From Sulfurimonas sp. HSL-1656 (GTDB lineage Bacteria > Campylobacterota > Campylobacteria > Campylobacterales > Sulfurimonadaceae): a stretch of DNA of 64,000 nt. The notes beneath the pieces were generated by a model. That model did no database searches, had not been told where the DNA came from, and worked only from the letters and a program-made list of their open reading frames with translations. Both the position numbers and the translations under genes were made by a program. The stretch lies in assembly GCF_039645585.1 (NCBI RefSeq), contig NZ_CP147915.1:2356001-2420000 (forward strand). The letters run 5' to 3'. Of the stretch, positions 32,738-49,286 are shown piece by piece (position 1 is the first letter of the stretch; the number at the start of each line of letters is the position of its first letter).

Positions 32738-34006
32738 TTACATGACGGTTCTGTTACGGCCCAGCTGTTTGGCGCTGTAGAGGTTCATATCCGCCTCGAA
32801 CACGAGATGGCGGGGGTTGTCACGCAGCCGTTCACTGTATTCGGCGATGCCAATACTCACCGTGACCGGCGTCGTAATGACACACCCCTCCCATGTATGG
32901 ACTTCAAACGCCTTCCGTATTTTTTCACAGATCGCAAACGCCTCTTTTGCCGTTGTCCCCGGCAGGATCGCCAGGAACTCTTCGCCGCCGTACCGAAAAA
33001 TGTGATCCGTCTTGCGCAGATGGGCTGAAAGCGTTTGCGCCATCCCGACGATGACCGCGTCCCCGTCCTGGTGGCCGCAGGTGTCATTGACGGCTTTAAA
33101 GTGGTCGAGGTCGAACATGACGACGCAGAAGAGACTGCCGATAAGGCCGTGCAGCCGGATCTCGCTGCTGAGGATCTCCATCAGGTCCCGGCGGTTCAGC
33201 AGCCCCGTCAGGGCATCCTTGGAGACGTCGTCAATCAGCGTCTGCTGCGTCACGTTGATATTGAGTTCGTTGTAGAGGTACATCGACTGGCGGACCAGCA
33301 TGACGTAGTCGATAAAGATCTTGTGGTAGTCTTCGCGGCGGATGGATCGGTAGATATTCTTGGTTATCAGGTGGATCTCCCGGTGCGTATCGAGCATATC
33401 TTTACGCACCATCGCGTCCGGAATAAACTTGATAAGCTCCTCGCTGTGCAGCCAGCTGCCGCACATGCAGCGGTGTTCATCAAACTCGATCCGCGCTTCG
33501 GGGTTCATAAGCCGGATATCCTTAATAACCTCGAGGATCCACTCCAAATGCTCTTTGACCGCAGGGATACCGATCTGCTGTTTGATCTGCCGCTCGAGGG
33601 TCTTCTGGTCGTTGTCCAGGTTCGGCTCCAGGTAACCGGCGGCACTAGCATTGATGGCCCGGCGGATATAGAGCTCAATCGCATCCGGCAGGCCCGTGAT
33701 GTCGTTCACCTCTTCGAGTTCTTCGATCAAAAACGCATAGAGCGTATCGAAGGCACCGCGGTACTCGACATAGGGCAGGCCCATTTTGAAATGGAAGAGC
33801 CCCAGCTGTTTGAAGCGTGCAAAAAAAGCTTCATCCTCATCATATACGGCCTCAAGAAAACTGCTGAGCTGGGACTGTTTGAGGCGGGCGAGGTCGACCC
33901 CTTTCAAAAACTCCTCGACATAGGCGTTCTTGATCAGGTCCTCATAAAAACGGTCAAAGGCACGGTGCAGTACCCCTTCGAAAAGGGAGATGTTCGATTT
34001 GATCAT
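32738..34006 (-). CDS. Globin-like / CZB / GGDEF diguanylate cyclase
   Basis: 422 residues, cytoplasmic. Residues 1 to about 130 resemble a globin-coupled sensor, with FKQLGLFHFKMGLPYVEY giving a candidate proximal heme ligand at H72. Residues about 150-245 fit a CZB zinc domain: H153, C180 (HRCMCGSW), H208 and H212, spaced 27-28-4, as against 30-27-4 in E. coli DgcZ. The GGDEF domain has GGEEF at 340-344 and RKTD (331-334) five residues before, an intact inhibitory site. It makes c-di-GMP; the two sensor domains suggest gas/redox plus zinc input. Converges with amrS. Confidence 0.85.
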   Translation of the reverse strand: MIKSNISLFEGVLHRAFDRFYEDLIKNAYVEEFLKGVDLARLKQSQLSSFLEAVYDEDEAFFARFKQLGLFHFKMGLPYVEYRGAFDTLYAFLIEELEEVNDITGLPDAIELYIRRAINASAAGYLEPNLDNDQKTLERQIKQQIGIPAVKEHLEWILEVIKDIRLMNPEARIEFDEHRCMCGSWLHSEELIKFIPDAMVRKDMLDTHREIHLITKNIYRSIRREDYHKIFIDYVMLVRQSMYLYNELNINVTQQTLIDDVSKDALTGLLNRRDLMEILSSEIRLHGLIGSLFCVVMFDLDHFKAVNDTCGHQDGDAVIVGMAQTLSAHLRKTDHIFRYGGEEFLAILPGTTAKEAFAICEKIRKAFEVHTWEGCVITTPVTVSIGIAEYSERLRDNPRHLVFEADMNLYSAKQLGRNRTVM

Positions 34007-34117
34007 CCTCTCTCCTTTAACCGTTATAAATTATTCTAATGTGAATTTATATGAGCCAACATAATCATTATACACAAAATTTTGATACCTGATCGTTTGG
34101 CGCTGTGTCCTCCGACC

Positions 34118-34768
34118 CTAGCTGATGATCGCGTCGTGCCACTGCACCAGGGTCAGCCGGTAGCCGTCGGACACAGGAAGGACCTCGTGGCTGTAGATGG
34201 GATTGCTCGGGAAAATGACCATATCCCCCGCCTTCGGACGGAAACGGACAGGCCTGCTCTCCGCATCAAAGAGGTAGTTAAAGACCAGTTCGCCGCCGCC
34301 GAACTGCAGCCCGTCGCCGCCGTTATCCCGGTGCGACGTTGCAAAAAGCACCGTCGTGATCTTCCGCTCGGGCGCGACCTGGGCAAAACCGACCGTTTCC
34401 CCCTCACTGTTGACAAGCTCGTTCGAGTCATCGGCATGTTTGATATAGAAGCCGCCCCGCGTGTACTCCAACGCCTGCACCTCCGTTGCCGTCGTCAGTG
34501 CCACGCTGAAATAGTCTTCGATCTGTTTCTGGTAATAGGCAAAACTGAGCTTATACCCTTCGAGCAGAATGTCGGGCAGTTCGTGGATTGCCGTCTTTCG
34601 GATATCCTCCTCAAGCTCGGGAACCACCACACCGTGGAAGTTTTTTTTGACTTTGGCCCGCTCCCCCTCACTTTTATCGTGGGTATACGCCGCAATCTCG
34701 GCGCAGGCTTCGGCCGAGAGAAAGTTCTCGATGATGAGATAGGGATAGTCGTAATAGGGGTTTGCCAT
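34118..34768 (-). CDS. PKHD-type 2-oxoglutarate/Fe(II) oxygenase
   Basis: 216 residues. Jelly-roll iron ligands are YIKHADDSN (His-x-Asp) and the later IYSHEVLPVSDGYRLTL with the second His and the Arg that grips 2-oxoglutarate, plus GGELVFNYL. Start MANPYYDYPYLIIENFLS at 34768 is chosen from family resemblance; no good ribosome site precedes it, and an upstream frame from a TTG at 34888 is possible. The substrate (protein side chain or small molecule) is unknown. Last gene before the tRNA, on the same strand. Confidence 0.75.
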   Translation of the reverse strand: MANPYYDYPYLIIENFLSAEACAEIAAYTHDKSEGERAKVKKNFHGVVVPELEEDIRKTAIHELPDILLEGYKLSFAYYQKQIEDYFSVALTTATEVQALEYTRGGFYIKHADDSNELVNSEGETVGFAQVAPERKITTVLFATSHRDNGGDGLQFGGGELVFNYLFDAESRPVRFRPKAGDMVIFPSNPIYSHEVLPVSDGYRLTLVQWHDAIIS

Positions 34769-34915
34769 CAGGCGGGTCTCGTAGCGCAGCTCGGCGATGA
34801 AGTCATCGCAGTAGACATAGTTGCTGATTTGCCGCAAAGGGTTCTCCGTGCCTGAAAAGGCGAAAGTGAAATCTGAAATAGTAACCAAAATTTGAAAAAG
34901 AGAATCGGTGAAAAG

Positions 34916-46967: not shown

Positions 46968-49286
46968 ATGAAGGGATCGTCACTGCTCCACCTCTCCAAG
47001 CATTTCCGGGAAGCCGACAACATCCGGCTGCGGCTCATACGGCTTCTCTACGACAACTTCTCGGGTGCCGCCGTCGTCATCTGGTTCAATGCATCGCTTT
47101 TCGTCTATATCCTCTGGCCGGTCGCGGACCACACGCAGCTGCTGTTCTGGTACGCCTTCATCTCGGGTATCACGCTGATCCGTGTCGTCGATACGAGCCT
47201 CTTTTTCCGGCAGAAGTCTCCGAACTACAATCAGTGGTACAGGCGTCTGTTCATCGGGGTCTTCTTTTCGGCAATCGCCTGGGGGGCCATCCCGCTGATC
47301 TTCTTCGCCTCGGTCGCCCCCATCTACCAGATGTTCATCATCATTCTGACCGTGGGGATGAGTGCGGGTGCGCTCAGCACCCTTGCCGCGGATCTGCGCC
47401 TCTCGTTCATCTATCTCTTCGCACTGCTCATCCCCCTGGCCTACCGTCTGCTGGAAGCGGATTCACCGATCTATTTCGCCTCCTTCATCCTCGTCCTCGC
47501 CTTCATTATCGTCGTCATCCGCACCGCCCGTGAGTTTCACCTCAGCCTGGTCGAGAGCTACCGCAACCTCGAGCTGTACCACCACGCGAAAGCACGGCTG
47601 GGCAGCAGCCAGAAACGGCTGCACATGATGTTCGAACAGGCCCCCATCGGGATCTTCTACTACGATAACGACCTGGTCATCGTCGATGCCAACAACGCAC
47701 TGTGCACTTTCCTCCATGCCAAACGCGACGAGCTTGTGGGGCTGCACCTGCGGGAGCTCCCCGATCAGCGCCCCCTGCAGAGCGCCTACCACGACAACAA
47801 CTATACCCGTTACGGCGTCTACGAAGGTCCGTACCATACCAAGCTGCGGGGCCTGGACCTCTGGATCAAAGTGGAGTTCATCCCCATCGTCGATGACCGC
47901 GGCGGTATGATCGGCGGCATGGCGATGTTCACCGACAAAACCCAGGAGCACAACGCCATGAAGCAGGCGGAGTTCCTCGCCCTGCACGATCCGCTGACAC
48001 GGCTGCCCAACCGGGAGCTGCTCAAAGAGCGCATCCGCCAGCTGCTCAAAGAGGACCGCCGTCTCGCCCGCTACTCGGCGCTGCTCTTTCTCGACCTGGA
48101 CCGCTTCAAGCACATCAACGACAGCGCCGGCCACCTTGTCGGAGACCAGCTGCTCGTCGAGACGGCCCGGCGGCTGGAGACGCTGCTGCGCGAAAGCGAT
48201 ACCCTCAGCCGCCTCGGGGGCGATGAATTCGTCATCCTGCTGCCGGTCATCGCCAGCGATGAGGACGGGACCGTGCGCCACGCCTTCCAGGTCGCGGAGA
48301 AGATCCATGAGGCCCTGCGGCAGCCCTACCCCATCGAAGGCCACCAGCTCTACACCTCCTGCAGTATCGGGATCACCACCCTGGAGAGCTTCCCCGACGA
48401 CATCGACGAAGTGCTGCGCCGCGCCGATACGGCCATGTACCAGGCCAAGGAGGAGGGGCGCGACCGCACCCGTTTCTACGATCCCGAGATGGACCAGAAA
48501 GCCCGCGACTACCTCCATACGCAGCAGCGGCTCCGCCATGCGATCGATACGGGAGGCTTCACCCTCTGTTACCAGCCCATCGTTCAGATCGCGACCGAGC
48601 GCGTCATCGCGGCCGAAGCCCTGCTGCGCTGGCACGACGAGATCGGCAACGAGATCCCCCCGGCCCACTTCATCCCGGTTGCCGAGGAGTCGGGGATGAT
48701 CAAGGCCATCGGCGAATGGGTCATAGACGAAACGTGCCGGCAGATCAGCACCTGGAAAGCGGAGGGGATCTTCAACCTGGAGTACATCTCCGTCAATATC
48801 AGTCCCCGCCAGCTTATTGAAAGCGACTTTGTCGATGTCATCGTCGAAAGCGTCAGGCGCCACGGCATCGCTCCTCGGCAGCTGCGGCTCGAAATCACGG
48901 AGACGGCACTGATCGAGAACTTCGACAAGACGAAAAAGCTTATCGAGGCGCTCAATGCCGAAGGAATCAAATTCATCATCGACGACTTCGGTACCGGCTA
49001 CTCCTCGCTCTCCTACCTCAAGCAGTTCGCCTTTTCCGCCCTCAAGATCGACCAGAGCTTTATCCGGGACATCCTGCAGGACCCCAAGGACGCGGCACTG
49101 GTACGCGCCATTATCGACATCGCTCGCCAGTTCGGCTACCAGGTCATCGCGGAGGGGGTCGAGGAGGAAGCACAGCGCGAGATGCTGCGCGAGAATGACG
49201 CCGCCGTCGCCTACCAGGGGTACCTCTGCAGCGAGGCGAAAGACGCCGAGGCCTTCGCGGTACATCTGCACAAAGAGGGGTGTTAA
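46968..49286 (+). CDS. Membrane PAS-GGDEF-EAL c-di-GMP protein
   Basis: 772 residues. Five or six membrane helices (about 25-195), a PAS domain (about 210-335, MMFEQAPIGIFYYDNDLVIVD), GGDEF domain with LGGDEFVI at about 415 and EAL domain with AAEALLRW at about 546-553, plus later TEIAL and DDFGTGYSSLSYLKQF. Both active sites look complete, so the direction of c-di-GMP turnover cannot be predicted. It converges with the diheme lipoprotein gene. Confidence 0.94.
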   Translation: MKGSSLLHLSKHFREADNIRLRLIRLLYDNFSGAAVVIWFNASLFVYILWPVADHTQLLFWYAFISGITLIRVVDTSLFFRQKSPNYNQWYRRLFIGVFFSAIAWGAIPLIFFASVAPIYQMFIIILTVGMSAGALSTLAADLRLSFIYLFALLIPLAYRLLEADSPIYFASFILVLAFIIVVIRTAREFHLSLVESYRNLELYHHAKARLGSSQKRLHMMFEQAPIGIFYYDNDLVIVDANNALCTFLHAKRDELVGLHLRELPDQRPLQSAYHDNNYTRYGVYEGPYHTKLRGLDLWIKVEFIPIVDDRGGMIGGMAMFTDKTQEHNAMKQAEFLALHDPLTRLPNRELLKERIRQLLKEDRRLARYSALLFLDLDRFKHINDSAGHLVGDQLLVETARRLETLLRESDTLSRLGGDEFVILLPVIASDEDGTVRHAFQVAEKIHEALRQPYPIEGHQLYTSCSIGITTLESFPDDIDEVLRRADTAMYQAKEEGRDRTRFYDPEMDQKARDYLHTQQRLRHAIDTGGFTLCYQPIVQIATERVIAAEALLRWHDEIGNEIPPAHFIPVAEESGMIKAIGEWVIDETCRQISTWKAEGIFNLEYISVNISPRQLIESDFVDVIVESVRRHGIAPRQLRLEITETALIENFDKTKKLIEALNAEGIKFIIDDFGTGYSSLSYLKQFAFSALKIDQSFIRDILQDPKDAALVRAIIDIARQFGYQVIAEGVEEEAQREMLRENDAAVAYQGYLCSEAKDAEAFAVHLHKEGC

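Follow-up and report, generated by a model that had tools for sequence, protein, structure and literature searches.

The window analysed here, a 64,000-nucleotide stretch of the Sulfurimonas sp. HSL-1656 genome, encodes what is probably a soluble diguanylate cyclase, homodimeric and built like DosC (a globin-coupled sensor), in which the middle domain is a true zinc-binding CZB domain, activity is gated by both a heme-bound gas and a zinc/thiol state, and an ancestral two-site state has been kept. Its three domains, a predicted heme ligand with a distal Tyr, a candidate 3His/1Cys site, and a GGEEF motif with an I-site, together with their conservation and purifying selection, are established by the sequence. 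The arrangement of globin, CZB fold and GGDEF is already known from DosC, and the novelty is smaller than was first claimed. What is new is that both sites appear intact in a DosC-type diguanylate cyclase; among 60 aligned relatives, this holds for the clade of the window protein (clade A) alone, with loss of one site or the other in the groups around it.

Gene and domain architecture

The reading frame and its parts, numbered by position in the window, are as follows.

32738..34006, minus strand: whole gene, ATG at 34006 and stop at 32738 (stop codon included), 422 aa (P0001)
34008..34016, minus strand: Shine-Dalgarno-like AAAGGAGAG (AAAGGAG-type), just 5' of the ATG, read from the sequence
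33617..34006, minus strand: Protoglobin (globin-coupled-sensor) domain, residues 1-130, from Pfam PF11563, PDB profile matches and VIA
33944..33949, minus strand: predicted distal heme pocket, Phe20-Tyr21, aligned with DosC Phe42-Tyr43
33791..33793, minus strand: predicted proximal heme ligand His72 (F8), aligned with DosC His98 and identical in 5/5 clade-A proteins
33332..33568, minus strand: CZB / DosC-type middle domain, residues 147-225, from Pfam PF13682 (sub-threshold) and NCBIfam NF007380
33548..33550, minus strand: predicted zinc ligand His153 (DgcZ His22 by alignment), followed by Trp156
33461..33469, minus strand: predicted zinc ligand Cys180 (DgcZ Cys52 by alignment) and the extra Cys182, in a clade-specific CxCGxW
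33383..33385, minus strand: predicted zinc ligand His208 (DgcZ His79 by alignment)
33371..33373, minus strand: predicted zinc ligand His212 (DgcZ His83 by alignment)
33221..33331, minus strand: helical linker from CZB to GGDEF, residues 226-262 (model helix 227-259, low pLDDT; near-identical between species)
32744..33220, minus strand: GGDEF diguanylate cyclase domain, residues 263-421, from Pfam, a model with pLDDT mostly >90, and 3ign
32975..32989, minus strand: active-site GGEEF (340-344), read from the sequence
33005..33016, minus strand: inhibitory-site RxxD (R331-K-T-D334), five residues ahead of GGEEF

The original prediction that this frame joins a globin-like domain, a CZB domain and a GGDEF domain is borne out by the Pfam matches to Protoglobin, CZB (sub-threshold) and GGDEF and by alignments with DgcZ and DosC. 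The residues that it singled out (H72, H153/C180/H208/H212, GGEEF and RxxD) are all present where it placed them, and they are unchanged in four orthologues with 97, 92, 90 and 60% identity to the window protein. It had overlooked Cys182, the distal Tyr21 and the homology of the middle domain to that of DosC.

The catalytic domain is the clearest of the three, with a Pfam GGDEF score of 135.5 bits over residues 263-419 and an rmsd of 1.4 between the predicted model and the GGDEF domain of 3ign. The cyclase signature is complete, comprising GGEEF at 340-344, the metal-binding Asp D299 and RKTD at 331-334. In a structure model of the full protein, built from a thin alignment (mean pLDDT of 72.5), the GGDEF domain is well predicted and the sensor part lies mostly between 40 and 80. 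Against its counterparts in three congeneric species, the window gene has a dN/dS of 0.04-0.09 whether the globin, CZB or GGDEF part is taken, so that purifying selection acts on all three.

Globin fold and predicted heme pocket

The window protein matches Protoglobin (PF11563) over residues 12-99 with 26.3 bits against a cut-off of 25, and three orthologues score 23.7, 24.3 and 15.7 bits; for this clade, the Protoglobin scores are marginal. Searched against the PDB with phmmer, the N-terminal 262 residues alone gave nothing convincing (best E of 0.23). A profile of clade A combined with its sister clade B, by comparison, matches 2w31, a globin-coupled sensor from Geobacter (E=7e-4), and HemAT 1or4 (E=4e-3), plus several truncated globins. 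The globin part modelled alone has a mean pLDDT of 54. With this low-confidence model, all 50 Foldseek matches listed are globins, but with E >0.1, and the VIA matches, nearly all of them globins too, are led by the globin domains of DosC and AfGcHK, both with Z of 7.6 (rmsd of 4.5 and 3.7 over 124 and 119 residues, respectively). The VIA values are insufficient on their own to assign a fold to the modelled domain, but they agree with the sequence evidence for a globin.

The original prediction was to fall if the N-terminal domain lacked a globin fold or if H72 varied. The sequence profile matches globins, the predicted fold does so weakly, and H72 is kept in all orthologues. In the most distant of these, L085, the distal Tyr is replaced by Phe and the His72 position is retained. 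In DosC, the corresponding Tyr43 has a described role in the heme pocket, and an intact globin and an intact middle domain both matter for function (PMC5549716).

CZB middle domain and predicted zinc site

The CZB model (PF13682) covers residues 153-218 of the window protein at 22.3 bits, below its cut-off of 29.4, which E. coli DgcZ itself passes with just 31.0 bits. All clade-A proteins fall below this cut-off (19.9-27.3 bits), and homologues from clades C and D exceed it (32-47 bits). The NCBIfam DgcZ model NF007380 aligns to residues 149-421 with 165.8 bits, its own cut-off of 256 not being reached. At the level of residues, H153/C180/H208/H212 align with DgcZ H22/C52/H79/H83 and reproduce its 3His/1Cys set and spacing. 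W156, three residues past the first of the zinc His positions, is invariant in 60/60 aligned rows; a Trp at this place is a mark of CZB cyclases (PMC8262984). In the published scheme, DgcZ-like proteins carry CZB at the N-terminus (PMC8262984), and the window protein instead has its globin domain ahead of CZB.

The middle domain is also distinct from that of DosC. PF21118, the "DosC CZB-like middle domain" family, scores 166.7 bits on E. coli DosC and finds no match in the window protein or the rest of its genome, and Ser188-Glu189 sit at the columns of DosC's essential His223-Lys224, so the window protein is not of the DosC subfamily proper. E. coli DosC is thus itself made of a globin, a CZB fold and a GGDEF domain, and lacks the zinc site.

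The alpha-3 motif of the window protein, C180-M-C182-G183, has the Cys at position 1 and the Gly at position 4, and its Cys at position 3 is unusual for CZB. The full stretch reads C-M-C-G-S-W, and the pattern C-x-C-G-x-W occurs in 5/5 clade-A proteins, with all other zinc-bearing rows of the 60-protein alignment having C-x-F-G-x-W. Placed beside the zinc Cys, the Cys182 thiol could form a disulfide or supply another ligand. A variant compatible with our main reading would make C180-x-C182 a reversible thiol switch that responds to oxidant stress rather than to zinc level, with the heme reporting O2. It draws on the restriction of CxC to clade A and on the CZB domains of DgcZ and TlpD, which sense HOCl via the zinc-binding Cys (PMC8262984); as C182 could simply occupy the hydrophobic position of the Phe, we consider this variant somewhat doubtful.

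Distribution of the two sites among relatives

The search for relatives took in ~200 genomes from the family and 397 from the phylum, two further phyla sampled around an Azonexus genome (398 genomes) and a Desulfobulbaceae genome (198), and smaller samples from two others. With the full-length window protein as query, the genome-contig search returned mostly relatives that share GGDEF only, and a search of viral contigs with A6 returned no relative. The alignment holds 60 representative proteins, namely DgcZ and the five groups below.

Clade A: n=5, two genera; heme ligand and zinc site both present
Clade B: n=6; heme ligand and distal FY, zinc site lost
Clade C: n=32, including two Azonexus proteins; zinc site, with neither F8 His nor distal Tyr
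Clade D: n=3; zinc site, Gln at F8
DosC type: n=13; heme ligand and distal Tyr, zinc site lost

Predicted sites for heme only are found in 19 of the 60, for zinc only in 36 (DgcZ included) and for both in 5 (clade A); since the representatives were collected with a profile built from clades A-D and the DosC type themselves, these counts are not a census. His72 and the 3His/1Cys set occur together in 5/5 clade-A rows and in 0/55 others. Losses are complete on either side: both groups without a zinc site, the DosC type and clade B, lack all four ligands, and every heme-free clade has neither the F8 His nor the distal Tyr.

That heme and zinc are strictly exclusive everywhere outside clade A is ruled out by P0005, a Desulfobacterota protein of 672 aa (L239:430-2445, minus strand, genome G982) with a globin bearing FY and the F8 His, then a CZB domain with 3His/1Cys (31.8 bits) and an EAL domain; its Protoglobin score is below the Pfam cut-off. 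Elsewhere the two sites nearly exclude each other, which suggests that few lineages need both.

In the large heme-free group (L090-L110, L117-L127 and L130-L138, with L140/L141 from Azonexus), the N-terminal domain ahead of the CZB-GGDEF core looks like a globin fold that has lost its heme ligand. The clade C profile matched no globin in the PDB, and its N-terminal domain is thus called globin-derived solely through homology to clades A and B. Pfam detects no globin in the scanned members of the large Campylobacterota group, which therefore probably pass as plain DgcZ-like proteins.

These patterns bear on the idea that the window protein is a DosC-type O2-sensing cyclase responding to heme only, with CZB as a dimerising relay and the zinc residues vestigial or structural. 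In its favour, the DosC-type and clade B proteins lack the zinc ligands; DosC activity requires a middle domain that is without zinc (PMC5549716); and the window CZB is sub-threshold in Pfam. Vestigial residues are nevertheless hard to reconcile with the presence of all four ligands and Trp156 in 5/5 clade-A proteins, even at 60% identity, with the low dN/dS of the CZB part, or with two zinc-losing groups that each lost the entire set, and we regard this explanation as unlikely.

Phylogeny and a likely two-site ancestor

In a tree of the CZB and GGDEF parts with the zinc columns removed, clades A and D group together (96/74) and B joins that pair (95/85), and clade C and the DosC type form separate clades. 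In a tree of the globin part with the heme columns removed, A again groups with D (88/76), and C is split from the rest (95/87). The two trees therefore agree on A+D and on the separation of C from B/A/D. The topology, read with the residue patterns, is most simply explained by an ancestor with both sites; the DosC type and B would then each have lost zinc, C and D would each have lost heme, and A would have kept both. As the trees are unrooted and the deep branches long, this ancestral state is likely rather than established.

Heme-free globins are known from stressosome proteins. A DgcZ-like cyclase responding to zinc only, its heme-free globin fold merely transmitting or dimerising as in clades C and D, would fit the Gln at the His72 position of clade D (nearest to A in the CZB+GGDEF tree), the predominance of heme-free versions in this bacterial family and the marginal Protoglobin scores, but it is improbable, as every heme-free clade is without F8 His and distal Tyr alike, a pair that the window protein and three orthologues keep (L085 keeping the His), and the window globin lies above the Pfam cut-off.

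Gene neighbourhood and genome

Directly upstream of the cyclase gene, on the same strand and 111 bases away, lies a gene for a 2OG-Fe(II) oxygenase, an O2-dependent enzyme (34118-34888, minus strand). The cyclase gene adjoins this oxygenase gene, map and secY in the window and in three congeneric species (4/4), and the most distant orthologue, L085 from another genus, has a different location beside another GGDEF gene. An operon with a phosphodiesterase partner was considered and rejected, as none adjoins the cyclase gene and the conserved neighbour is the oxygenase. In two of the four species, ~4 kb separates a radical-SAM gene from the cyclase gene (L214:3482-7345 and L216), and in L214 this includes a REP-type transposase-like ORF.

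The genome as a whole has 21 GGDEF and 15 EAL matches. A GGDEF-EAL protein is encoded in the same window (about 47979-49235, plus strand, in an open frame of 775 aa). At G000:C1:1842500-1843900 (L249), the genome also encodes a DgcZ-like CZB-GGDEF protein whose HCHH set is intact, and at G000:C1:779100-780000 (L250) a small stand-alone CZB protein, in an open frame of 165 residues, that has the zinc residues; with these two, the organism may read zinc via CZB elsewhere too. In another genome of the same bacterial family, G085, we observe a globin-coupled hybrid histidine kinase with Protoglobin, HisKA, HATPase and receiver domains (L242:830-3178, plus strand).

Proposed mechanism

We infer cofactor binding, the direction of each effect and the interplay of the two inputs as follows. 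His72 would bind heme in the globin domain, with O2 (or CO/NO) bound next to Tyr21, and zinc would be held by His153/Cys180/His208/His212 in a CZB domain whose helices form the dimer core. Because zinc inhibits DgcZ (PMC8846402), we propose that it likewise restrains the GGDEF pair here, and that the pair would be released once zinc is lost or Cys180/Cys182 are oxidised, as in DgcZ, for which HOCl relieves the inhibition by zinc (PMC8846402, PMC8262984). As in DosC, gas binding at the heme would act by shifting the same helices. With heme and zinc both acting on these helices, c-di-GMP output is proposed to depend on both signals, and RxxD would add product inhibition.

Several observations count against this account, which we nonetheless favor as the probable one. 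The clade-A CZB domains are below the Pfam cut-off, with Cys182 in place of a conserved Phe of the motif; the globin evidence includes the marginal Protoglobin scores, the distal Phe of L085 and the poor model; and the near-exclusion of the two sites in other lineages suggests that a two-cofactor sensor is seldom needed. The unrooted trees with their long deep branches also weaken its evolutionary part. More tentatively still, and at less than even confidence, clade A could be what is left of an ancestral c-di-GMP switch with two inputs, a heme gas site and a zinc/thiol site on one helical relay, of which all other branches, DosC included, dropped one cofactor, and could today work as a coincidence detector of O2 and zinc/oxidant with a CxC thiol switch.

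Comparison with known systems

DosC is the oxygen-sensing enzyme of E. coli and the model globin-coupled cyclase. DosC/YddV and BpeGReg-type cyclases share with the window protein the order of a protoglobin with F8 His and distal Tyr, a CZB-fold middle domain and a GGDEF domain, and the middle domains of DosC and the window protein align between globin and GGDEF with a conserved W156 and GxW. In the DosC type, the four zinc ligands are gone (Ile/Ala/Ile/Asp in DosC) and an FxHKG motif is present, whereas the window protein keeps 3His/1Cys and lacks both the His223-Lys224 motif and a DosC_2nd match. DgcZ/YdeH, the CZB-GGDEF cyclase of E. coli, has the 3His/1Cys site, the His-x-x-Trp and the GGEEF output in common with the window protein, but it has no globin domain and reads C-Q-F where the window protein has CxC. 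The Campylobacterota clades B, C and D share length, domain order and full-length homology with the window protein, but each keeps one site (heme in B, zinc in C and D) where the window protein keeps both. Perkins et al. list Sulfurimonas proteins as DgcZ-like (PMC8262984); judged by genus, these may be clade C proteins in which a degenerate globin was overlooked.

The original prediction knew of no chain with both sensors. As put, this does not stand, given the DosC build itself and further cases. Acidithiobacillus AFE_1712, published as Protoglobin-GGDEF-EAL-CZB (PMC6416229), combines globin and CZB in one c-di-GMP enzyme like the window protein; compared by published domain order, it differs in its C-terminal CZB and GGDEF-EAL output. 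Perkins et al. (2021) list globin among the domains that accompany CZB (PMC8262984). P0005 has a heme-type globin and an intact CZB site, as in the window cyclase, but an EAL (phosphodiesterase) output with no recognisable GGDEF. Both sensors in one chain are thus rare, not unique. The part of the claim that stands is the narrower one, of both sites intact in a DosC-type cyclase; the literature searched on DosC with DgcZ, or on globin-coupled sensors with CZB, yielded no description of such a protein.

Clade A offers a hint as to why relatives lost zinc or heme time and again, and bears on whether O2 and zinc/oxidant signals merge ahead of c-di-GMP synthesis. Wan et al. found the DosC middle domain to be essential, yet not classifiable by sequence (PMC5549716); a relative with a complete predicted zinc CZB domain and heme pocket allows the reading of one relay with two cofactors to be asked of this family directly.
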